A stretch of DNA of 35,127 bases. Source: a virus. This document shows positions 26,171-29,306 of the stretch, piece after piece. Under the pieces are notes generated by a model that worked only from the letters and a program-made list of their open reading frames with translations, had not been told where the DNA came from and made no database searches. Both the position numbers and the translations under genes were made by a program. How positions within the stretch are numbered: the first letter of the stretch is position 1; the number at the start of each line of letters is the position of its first letter. The stretch is from IMG/VR virus record IMGVR_UViG_3300033142_000579, positions 1 to 35,127 of that record; one strand, written 5' to 3'.

Positions 26171-28177
26171 CTACTTAATCGGGCAGCTTCCCCTTGAGCA
26201 TTCACGCTCATGGTCAATAACTAGCTTCTTGCCCTCATAGTTTTCATAATCCATACGCGTAATTTCTGTATAAGGCGGCTGTGGTCTGCCCCCGACTCCC
26301 ACCAAAACGGTGGTCCCCTTGAGCTTTGGAAGGAACTTAATCACAGTGTGGTAAAGCTCCTTCTCAGTTGTAGCAGGAGTTAGGTTGACTGTCAAGGAAA
26401 TTGAATTGTCAGCCCATTCTCGTTGCAACATAGCCTGAATTGCCAGGGTGTCGTGCATTGAAATGTCATGCTGACCCTCAACAATCTCATCTGCATCATA
26501 ACCTAATGCAGAAACTTCGTCAACAAGTGGATGTTTACAAACATGCTTGGCAATGGTTGTGTTTATACCCTCTTCTCTGTTAATACACTCTTCAAACTCT
26601 ACTCCGTCAGCCATAAGTTTAGGAATGTTCGGGTCATCCTTTTGGTAACGCATACGCTGTTCGTAGTATGGGAATAGTAGAGCTTGGCCACCTTCAGTTG
26701 CTCCAGCCAATTTTGCAATTGTCCCGGTAGGTGCCAATGTTGTGTTCTTAATTGGAGAAGGAATTCTTAGTTCGTGTGCATACTCCATGCCGGTCTTTTT
26801 CACCACACGGTAGAATTGACGGAGGGTGCTATGAACCTCTGGGTCATTGTGGCAATCGCTGTATTTCTTGCCCTGCTTACATAGCCAACCCTGGAAGCCA
26901 AAGAAACCAACACCAATGCGCCTGTTACGACTAACGACCTCTCGTTGCCACGGCGAGTAGATATCCCCAAAGGTAGCACGAATAAGGAAACGAGTCATCA
27001 TCATAAATGCTCGCTTTGCTCCCTCTATGTTGTCATAAAACTCTGCTAGGTTGATATGTCCGAGATTGCAATTGCCAAATGGGAGAGCGAAAATCTCACC
27101 ACATGGATTTGAACTTACGACTTCTTCGGTCTCTCCGTGTTGCGCAAGCGACATATTGCAAAAACCAGGCTCACCGCTAACATACATTGACTCAATGCAC
27201 TTCTTGTAGACCATCCTTGCGTGCTTGTCGCCCTTCTTGAATAGTCTGAAAAACGCATTGTCCACACCAACAGAAATGTTTGTAGTCCAATGGGAAACTC
27301 TGGCATCATCGCTCTTGCAGTGAATGAACTCAAAGATGTCTGGGTCTTTCCAATGCTTAATTGACATACGTGCGCTACGACGAACATTGCCAGCAACCAC
27401 ACACATTGCGATGCGATGGTCAATTTCCATGTGGTCTAGGGATGTGAGCTTTTGTCCATGCCTGTCATTCAACAGTTCTGCAACAGCCTGGAGCATTCGG
27501 ATAAGTGCCTCTGGCCCCGAAGCGGTGCCACCAAATGACCTAATAGGAGAGCCATAGGGTCTTACGCGGCTCATATCAAATACAAGTGGTTGTGGGTTTT
27601 TAGCAAATGCCTGCTCTAAAACCAACACAAGGGCTTCGACCCAGCCCTCGCGGCTATCCTCTACTGGAATACATCCATCCCACGTATAGTGATAATCACT
27701 AGATAGAGTATCCCCAATGCGTTCGGAATCAGCATGCTTTGGGTCGCATACAATATGAACGTCGAGTTTGTTTCTAATAGGAGGATATTGTTTGATGAAT
27801 CTATCGGAATAGTTTGCGCCTACACCGCCACCCTTCATAAGCTCATCGAACATGAATGAATAGTGGTCACTCATATTATCGCGCCAACCTGAGACGTGAC
27901 AGTTAAACAAAAACTGGCGGCCCTTAACGCCACTGACCCACAGGTGTCGGCCTGCGGGCAGTGCTTTGAAATCAAGGAATAGGTCTATGAGGTCTTGGCG
28001 CTCGTTCCTTCTCCAGAATTTTTTGTCTACTAGAGCAAGATTACCGTCTACAACCCTATTGATGGTTTCTGGCCATGTCTCCTTTGAGCCGTCTGGTTTC
28101 CTCCTACTATACGTCCTCTCGTAAACTTCCTTGCCTATCGGCCCCCACTTAATCTGCTGCATAGTAGGCATACTCAC
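26171..28177 (-). CDS. nrdJ: Class II (cobalamin-dependent) ribonucleotide reductase, 668 aa
   Basis: It reduces ribonucleotides to deoxyribonucleotides using adenosylcobalamin. FLFNCHVSGW near residue 90 holds the first active Cys. NPCGEIFALPFGNCNLGHINL in the middle holds the conserved N.CGE loop and radical-carrying Cys, and PTGTIAKLAGATEGG is the second conserved loop. The C-terminus ECSRGSCPIK carries a Cys pair for re-reduction by thioredoxin. At 668 residues it is near the monomeric lactobacillus type. It would supply dNTPs for phage DNA synthesis. It is followed immediately by the zinc ribbon gene. The stop is TAG. Confidence 0.95.
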   Translation of the reverse strand: MSMPTMQQIKWGPIGKEVYERTYSRRKPDGSKETWPETINRVVDGNLALVDKKFWRRNERQDLIDLFLDFKALPAGRHLWVSGVKGRQFLFNCHVSGWRDNMSDHYSFMFDELMKGGGVGANYSDRFIKQYPPIRNKLDVHIVCDPKHADSERIGDTLSSDYHYTWDGCIPVEDSREGWVEALVLVLEQAFAKNPQPLVFDMSRVRPYGSPIRSFGGTASGPEALIRMLQAVAELLNDRHGQKLTSLDHMEIDHRIAMCVVAGNVRRSARMSIKHWKDPDIFEFIHCKSDDARVSHWTTNISVGVDNAFFRLFKKGDKHARMVYKKCIESMYVSGEPGFCNMSLAQHGETEEVVSSNPCGEIFALPFGNCNLGHINLAEFYDNIEGAKRAFMMMTRFLIRATFGDIYSPWQREVVSRNRRIGVGFFGFQGWLCKQGKKYSDCHNDPEVHSTLRQFYRVVKKTGMEYAHELRIPSPIKNTTLAPTGTIAKLAGATEGGQALLFPYYEQRMRYQKDDPNIPKLMADGVEFEECINREEGINTTIAKHVCKHPLVDEVSALGYDADEIVEGQHDISMHDTLAIQAMLQREWADNSISLTVNLTPATTEKELYHTVIKFLPKLKGTTVLVGVGGRPQPPYTEITRMDYENYEGKKLVIDHERECSRGSCPIK

Positions 28178-28179
28178 TC

Positions 28180-28861
28180 CTAGTGTAAGTCTTTGATATC
28201 ACCCCTTAGAAACCTTTTGAGGGATGACTTCTTATTTGTTCTGTGGTCTACAACCAGGTCTTTGCGCTCGCAATAGGTTCTAACTTTGTCCCCTCTTGCC
28301 CCTCGACCGACCTGGCTTTTTCTCTTGGCGTTCTTTTTATCTTTGTTCCGTGCGCTGTGAGCACTAAATAACTTAGCCCGTAGAGCGTTCAGGGCCAACG
28401 TCTTATTACGTCCCTGTTTACGCCCGTATTGGGCTATTACAACTATTCCTGTTGGGATGTGTGTTAATCTAACTGCGCTGTCAGTTTTATTTTTATGCTG
28501 TCCCCCAGGTCCACTACCTCTAAAGAAAGTAAATCTGAGGTCTTGCTGTCTAAGCACCGCTTTAGCTTCTTCTTTGTGCTGCAAGATAGCAACGGTAATA
28601 GTGCTTGTATGAACTCTTCCCCTGCGCTCTGTAGGCGGGACTCTTTGGTATCTGTGGACCCCTGCCTCACTACCGAAAACTTCATATACTCTCCGTCCTT
28701 TTACTTCTAGGACGACGTGTGCGTCCGAGCGGTCCAATAACTCTATGCTAAAGATGCTCCTTAGTAGCGGCCTTCCTGTAAACGGCCTCGAACTTTGCGA
28801 CCAAGTCTTTTGCATCATCGCCACCAGCGGCGGCGCGTATTTCTAGCGTCAATCTATTCAT
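28180..28861 (-). CDS. RF1-like release factor with +1 programmed frameshift, 226 aa
   Basis: The gene needs two frames. From ATG 28859-28861, behind AAGGAGG, 37 codons give an RF domain 2 start (MNRLTLEIRAAAGGDDAKDL) and end CTT TAG. Skipping one T gives SIELLDRSDAHVVLEV and the rest without further break. The joined protein has PPT at residues 75-77, the PxT codon-reading motif of RF1 (UAA/UAG), GGQ at 119-121 for peptidyl-tRNA hydrolysis, and the RF C-terminus VRTYCERKDLVVDHR. It lacks domain 1 (about 100 residues), as do other short RFs. The final stop is also TAG. A simple sequencing error cannot be excluded, but the shift site copies prfB. Confidence 0.85.
28747..28762 (-). promoter_or_regulatory. 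prfB-like +1 frameshift site (SD, CTT TAG)
   Basis: On the minus strand: AAGGAG (28757-28762), spacer CAT, CTT, TAG, C. In bacterial prfB the order is AGGGGG, TAT, CTT, TGA, C with the same three-base spacing. There an internal Shine-Dalgarno sequence and slow stop reading push the CUU-reading tRNA one base forward onto UUU. Here the stop is UAG, the codon an RF1 would read, so low RF1 activity should favour the shift and more factor. Confidence 0.8.
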
Positions 28862-28875
28862 GGCCTTTGGCCTCC

Positions 28876-29283
28876 TTATTCATTATCTTCTGTCCAGAAA
28901 CAGTCGTCATCGACCATCTCTTCTACCGTAGTGTCACCTTGATTCAAGCTCTCTTCTATGCGGGTGTCCCAAATGTCGAAGTCAACGAATTTATTGCGTT
29001 TCATATAAAACAAAAAATTGCGCACGTTCTTGACCATGAAGTAGTCGGCGTCCTGACCGCCCCTGTGCGCGTTCCAATAGTATTCGATGAAGTAGGCATA
29101 CCTTGTGCATCTAAGTATACAGACATCGGGACCGTTAGACAACATGAAGAAAACCATATCACCAAATTCCTCGGCATTGTCCCGCACTGGGCCAATTTCG
29201 AGGTCCATTTTCTTAGCGGCATTGCCAACCTTAGTAGCTCGCTTTAGCGTCTCGATTGAAAACTTTGGCTTGTTCAACTTCAT
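28876..29283 (-). CDS. Hypothetical protein, 135 aa
   Basis: The start chosen is ATG 29281-29283 (MKLNKPKFSIETL) with GGAGG just before. An in-frame GTG at 29302-29304 is an alternative. The protein is acidic at the C-terminus (VDDDCFWTEDNE). It contains GDMVFFMLSNGPDVCILRCTRYAYFIEYYWNAHRGG, compatible with a small alpha/beta fold. The family is unknown. It is the first gene of the leftward operon and stops 14 bases before the release factor start. Confidence 0.55.
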   Translation of the reverse strand: MKLNKPKFSIETLKRATKVGNAAKKMDLEIGPVRDNAEEFGDMVFFMLSNGPDVCILRCTRYAYFIEYYWNAHRGGQDADYFMVKNVRNFLFYMKRNKFVDFDIWDTRIEESLNQGDTTVEEMVDDDCFWTEDNE

Positions 29284-29295
29284 TCCTCCCACCTT

Positions 29296-29306
29296 TCTAT
29301 ACACCC
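29296..29306 (-). promoter_or_regulatory. GGTGTATAA motif upstream of first leftward gene
   Basis: GGGTGTATAGA on the minus strand, 12 bases before the chosen ATG of the first leftward gene. It matches the motif set before the structural genes. The short distance leaves little room for a leader, so if it is a promoter element the true start may lie elsewhere. Confidence 0.3.

Follow-up and report, generated by a model that had tools for sequence, protein, structure and literature searches.

Bacterial prfB, the gene for release factor 2 (RF2), carries early in its reading frame a Shine-Dalgarno-like box, a 3-nt spacer, the shift codon CTT, a stop codon in the A site (UGA, rarely UAA, read by RF2) and a C after it, and the remainder of the gene follows in the +1 frame. 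A counterpart of the RF2 circuit that uses RF1 and UAG was not known at the time of a 2016 review (PMC5009743), and according to a 2025 survey TAG is absent from prfB in 8,164 genomes and no case of a programmed shift in prfA, the gene for RF1, was convincing (PMC12421855). Another virus-encoded class-I factor made through a +1 shift is found in giant viruses of amoebae, in which two genes of the eukaryotic/archaeal type have been described: the Mimivirus gene R726 shifts at CUU UAG C, as was demonstrated in E. coli, and Megavirus mg280 has CUU UAA C (PMC3521657). Here we analyzed a gene on the minus strand of a 35,127-nucleotide stretch of viral DNA (IMG/VR record IMGVR_UViG_3300033142_000579, positions 1 to 35,127; referred to as the window). 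We consider it probable that this gene encodes a phage member of the RF1 family of class-I release factors that lacks domain 1 and whose production requires a +1 shift of the ribosome at CUU-UAG-C. The switch is a circuit of the prfB kind in a new protein branch and at a new position, and its nearest UAG precedent is the Mimivirus gene. The initial annotation of the window had described such an arrangement as unknown from bacteria or phages; in the searched literature this holds, including for a bacterial RF1/UAG counterpart, but Mimivirus has an identical CUU UAG C shift in its eukaryotic-type factor.

The gene starts with an ATG at 28861 (minus strand, as are all features of the window given below), which is preceded by AATAAGGAGGCCAAAGGCC; the initiation Shine-Dalgarno sequence AAGGAGG (28871..28877) shares bases with the stop codon of the gene upstream. 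The zero frame (open reading frame (ORF) 1, 28751..28861) has 37 codons, translates as MNRLTLEIRAAAGGDDAKDLVAKFEAVYRKAATKEHL and covers the start of release factor domain 2 with the EIRAAAGGDDAK motif and the following helix. The site itself reads ACT AAG GAG CAT CTT TAG C. The internal Shine-Dalgarno-like stimulator AAGGAG (28757..28762) lies 3 nt ahead of the shift codon CTT (28751..28753), which is followed by the stop codon TAG (28748..28750) and a C at 28747. The +1 frame (ORF2, 28180..28749), open from AGC at 28749 to TAG at 28182-28180, encodes the PPT codon-recognition loop, the GGQ domain and the end of the factor, as assigned with Pfam and RF1 structures, and joining both frames by a +1 shift gives a protein of 226 residues. 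The coordinates, spacing and frames in the initial annotation were thus correct when read directly against the sequence. The window gene shares with prfB the box, the spacer, the CTT, the A-site stop, the C after it, the early position and a release factor as product. It differs from prfB in being encoded by a phage, in lacking domain 1, in its stop codon (UAG; UGA in most relatives) and in its product, which has a PPT loop and fits RF1 models best, whereas RF2 has an SPF loop.

A broken frame in an assembled sequence may also come from gene decay or from a mistake in sequencing or assembly. The closest relative of the window is L001, an IMG/VR phage contig of 177,375 bases that is colinear with it at mostly 72-85% nucleotide identity. 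Its factor gene carries the identical AAGGAGCATCTTTAGCAT, and the 20-nt shift block is unchanged between the two. Synonymous changes were found in 38 of the 189 codons that specify the same residue in both genes, and none of them falls in the stretch from -15 to +3 relative to the stop. The ratio of nonsynonymous to synonymous substitution rates (dN/dS) was 0.188 for the part before the stop, read in the zero frame, and 0.189 for the part after it, read in the +1 frame. The two wrong frames gave 1.7 and 1.0, which indicates that purifying selection acts both before and after the stop, and in the right frames only. Because L001 keeps the site despite these silent changes and the two parts have the same dN/dS of 0.19, the frame break is not an error. 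Furthermore, 70 separately assembled genes show the same break with an invariant CTT (see below), and we regard the probability of an error or of gene decay as negligible.

The joined protein matched the Pfam families PCRF (E-value 7e-23) and RF-1 (E-value 1.5e-29). Among the NCBIfam models, PRK00591 (RF1) gave the best score (230.7 bits), followed by prfB (164.5) and prfH (93.7). None of these scores reached its cut-off (400 bits for RF1, 166.65 for prfH); the RF1 and RF2 models also span domain 1, which the window factor does not have, as its joined sequence begins at domain 2. The absence of domain 1 is seen in the whole group: the number of open codons ahead of the motif has a median of 18 in the phage genes versus at least 117 in bacterial prfA. 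The PxT motif of RF1 is present as PPT at residues 75-77 and the catalytic GGQ motif as GPGGQ at residues 117-121. The closest solved structures were the RF1 entries 1rq0/2fvo (E-value 5e-49), ahead of RF2 (4e-35) and PrfH (2e-15). For an uninterrupted relative (L033), the predicted structure (mean predicted local distance difference test score 88.8) has the fold of RF1 domains 2-4 and matched ribosome-bound RF1 with a template modelling score of 0.91 and an E-value of 1e-22, better than RF2 or PrfH (3e-12 for PrfH). The PxT loop, the GGQ motif and domains 2-4 are shared with bacterial RF1, both in sequence and in predicted fold, but unlike prfA, in which no programmed frameshift was found (PMC12421855), the window gene lacks domain 1 and requires recoding. 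Domain 1 is dispensable for stop codon recognition and release, and truncated RF1 is functional in vivo (PMC1586002). The window factor belongs to the bacterial RF1 family and not, as the Mimivirus protein does, to the eukaryotic/archaeal class-I factors.

A class-I factor without domain 1 is also known in PrfH (RF-H; PMC1586002), and the window product could by this likeness be a PrfH-like factor for ribosome rescue instead of a factor that releases at stop codons. PrfH, however, has another recognition region, belongs to an rtcB-linked operon and is much less similar to the window factor; the score of 93.7 bits against 230.7 for RF1 and the weaker structural match of the L033 model to PrfH point the same way. 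In addition, the gene directly upstream (28876..29304) has no family match, and no RtcB-like partner was found at this position. We therefore consider a PrfH-like rescue factor very improbable.

Three profile scans of IMG/VR returned 268, 235 and 347 relatives; the best 80 of each were taken. Removal of duplicates left 118 distinct phage genes, to which a bacterial metagenome-assembled genome (MAG) added one shifted copy. All class counts derive from these best-80 lists and are not an unbiased census. In this set, 70 genes (69 of them from phages) need a +1 shift, 40 have an in-frame stop and 9 are uninterrupted. The codon before the shift-site stop is CTT in all 70 shifted genes, while elsewhere in the same genes CTT accounts for 1.1% of codons and 16.5% of leucine codons. 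A Shine-Dalgarno-like tetramer occurs in the box before CTT in 62 of the 70 (14% at control positions), the commonest hexamer being CGGAGG, located 3 bases ahead of CTT, and the stop is followed by C in 50. The nearest ATG lies 34-38 codons from the stop in 69 of the 70. The stop itself is TGA in 53 genes, TAG in 14 and TAA in 3. The prfB-style +1 frameshift at UAG in a phage RF1-type gene that the initial annotation had proposed was therefore borne out when its relatives were inspected. That annotation had also named an uninterrupted gene in related phages as evidence against the shift: such genes exist, but the nine are all distant members, and the close relative L001 keeps the site. Taken together, the comparison of these sequences strongly supports a +1 shift in this family of phage RF1-type factors that is programmed, selected and widespread.

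A scan for the exact UAG site as a DNA pattern returned 13 contigs, and the sole recognised relative among them was an already known contig. Bacterial genomes scanned for the same shift contained 78 uninterrupted prfA genes and a single shifted copy, with CTT TGA, on a contig of a Hydrogenophilales MAG (L322, NCIF01000008.1); an uninterrupted release factor gene is present on another contig of this MAG, and the shifted copy is probably phage-derived. In the maximum-likelihood tree, the phage genes are separate from bacterial prfA (support 92/89). TAG carriers do not differ from TGA carriers in the recognition loop: PPT is present in 9 of the 14 TAG carriers and in 34 of the 52 viral TGA carriers. 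In L005, L069, L184, L199 and L244 the PxT loop is shortened or lost; the recoded stop is TGA in all five and represents the shift site in all except L069, where it is in frame. L096 is an outlier of the family: this viral release factor has an uninterrupted frame and an SPF loop of the RF2 type.

The 40 relatives without a frame change contain one or two in-frame stops, usually UGA. In 23 of them (L077 of contig G005, L054, L042 and 20 others) a single in-frame TGA is located 26 codons past the GGxD motif, a position occupied by tryptophan (TGG) in 65 of the 78 bacterial prfA genes. The remaining tryptophan codons of these 23 phage genes are TGG, and all 23 genes terminate in TAA. Some members of the other readthrough subgroup hold two in-frame stops. 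L012 and L013 have both TGA and TAG in frame and L092 has TAG, in each case in the first third of the gene. Every contig checked uses the standard genetic code, with both UGA and UAG terminating genes (in G005, TGA terminates 39 of 127 long ORFs). A recoded genetic code as the cause of the in-frame TGA was rejected, because TGA ends 5-39 long ORFs per sample and the extensions beyond it are mostly short in the contigs checked; a tRNA with a UCA anticodon was not seen in the scanned parts of the contigs with in-frame TGA. The simplest reading is that the in-frame TGA is read through as tryptophan, almost at the spot where the relatives shift, which makes it a candidate for regulated UGA readthrough. 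According to the 2016 review, regulated readthrough has not replaced RF2 frameshifting in any known organism (PMC5009743). Mimivirus R726 and Megavirus mg280 also use UGA readthrough, but both recodings occur there within one gene, while the phage genes use one or the other.

Frameshift signals can set fixed ratios, and a programmed but unregulated shift might merely fix a low, constant level of the factor. However, the slippery A site always holds a stop codon, and the shift is replaced by an in-frame stop in 40 relatives. This points to competition with a release factor as the conserved element, and we regard an unregulated shift as unlikely.

We propose that ribosomes translate the 37 codons of ORF1 and that the internal AAGGAG would then pair with 16S rRNA, by analogy with prfB. 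Once UAG occupies the A site, two outcomes would compete: release, through RF1 or the phage factor, and a slip of the P-site tRNA-Leu from CUU to UUU, again as in prfB. Fast termination would yield a useless 37-residue peptide, and slow termination would allow the +1 shift and the synthesis of the 226-residue factor. With its RF1-type PPT loop and GGQ motif, the factor may terminate at UAG and UAA, which would close a negative feedback loop. The competition, the conditional production and the feedback are inferred steps. In general terms, the gene product is best described as a phage release factor that would be made when termination becomes limiting in the infected cell. In the window, the UAG form of the switch makes the sensed factor RF1-type and thus potentially self-sensing. 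As UAG is read by RF1 and presumably, given the PPT loop, by the phage factor, a self-limiting RF1/UAG loop is plausible for the window and for the 14 TAG phages.

Several points weigh against this proposal. The codon specificity of the factor is suggested by its motif only. Most members of the family carry UGA at the shift site despite an RF1-like loop, which does not fit simple self-sensing across the family. Moreover, the spacing of the site in nucleotides is that of prfB, but the shift occurs at codon 37 in domain 2, whereas in prfB it occurs in domain 1; the window site is therefore not simply an inherited prfB cassette. For the self-regulating RF1 circuit of the initial annotation, this means that the programmed shift at UAG is supported, but self-sensing by RF1 stays unproven and feedback by the factor's own product is not established, because most relatives (53 of the 70) use UGA with the same RF1-type loop.

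These TGA sites would be explained if the switch senses the termination capacity of the host (mostly RF2 at UGA) and not its own product, with the stop drifting between UGA and UAG, as any stop read by one factor would serve, and with UAA avoided because both factors read it. The tree is consistent with such drift: TAG requires 12 changes, at least 7 of them forced by well supported branches, indicating that TAG arose repeatedly and that UGA and UAG were exchanged many times, with TAA being rare. TAG is also more frequent than TAA (14 versus 3) although TAA is the one-step intermediate; a preference for a stop read by a single factor over UAA, which is read by both RF1 and RF2, is one reading of this. 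On the other hand, bacterial prfB has no TAG in 8,164 genomes (PMC12421855), and its presence in 14 genes here suggests that reading by RF1 is tolerated or useful. Host sensing is a serious rival that we regard as less likely than not. Alternatively, a factor that recognises all three stops would make every UGA, UAG and UAA site truly autoregulatory, and the five genes with a shortened or lost PxT loop would agree with such broad reading. The loop and its flanks (HRxQRVPPT) nevertheless match RF1 and not RF2, and the GGxE region retains its acidic residue, as Asp, without a charge flip, which makes a three-stop factor distinctly improbable.

The initial annotation had further counted about ten leftward genes ending in TAG, which is roughly right (9 of the 30 minus-strand ORFs of at least 100 codons), and had connected this usage with the shift site. 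The connection did not hold: in the genes flanking the factor, TAG accounts for 25% of stops in phages with a TAG shift site and for 26% in those with TGA. Downstream of the factor, the next gene (26171..28177) begins 2 nt past the factor end and encodes a class II (B12-dependent type) ribonucleotide reductase (PHROG 367, E-value 1e-205; Pfam RNR-II).

The phages of this family are large, with many contigs of 100-480 kb, and several carry large tRNA sets. The L001 phage (contig G001) has, in addition to more than 40 tRNAs, a transfer-messenger RNA gene (L344:3699-4065) and next to this gene a tRNA whose anticodon was called as four bases (tccg; L344:4125-4207). Amber-reading tRNAs with a CUA anticodon were found in G013 (L378:13136-13207) and G021 (L381:5653-5726), of which one has a TAG and the other a TGA shift site. 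Ribosome recycling factor was found in none of 17 family phage contigs. Genes for release factors 1 and 2 have already been reported from huge phages, with no recoding mentioned in the relevant part of that report (PMC7162821). The factor is probably part of a translation kit run by the phage.

We lean towards the view that large phages evolved a stop-codon-sensing switch on an RF1-family factor independently of prfB and of the giant viruses. Its sensor would be either a +1 shift at UGA, UAG or UAA or UGA readthrough at an ancestral tryptophan codon, the UAG form would constitute a self-limiting RF1 circuit, and readthrough would replace frameshifting in related genes. A site of the RF1/UAG type is carried by 14 phage genes within a family that has 118 or more distinct members, in which frameshifting and stop readthrough occur at nearly the same spot, and the UGA, UAG and UAA sites form a natural series for what a frameshift sensor reads. 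Recoded release factor genes of phages are likely to be split or missed by standard annotation. The finding is also relevant to the question of why phages bring along a termination factor in addition to large tRNA sets.
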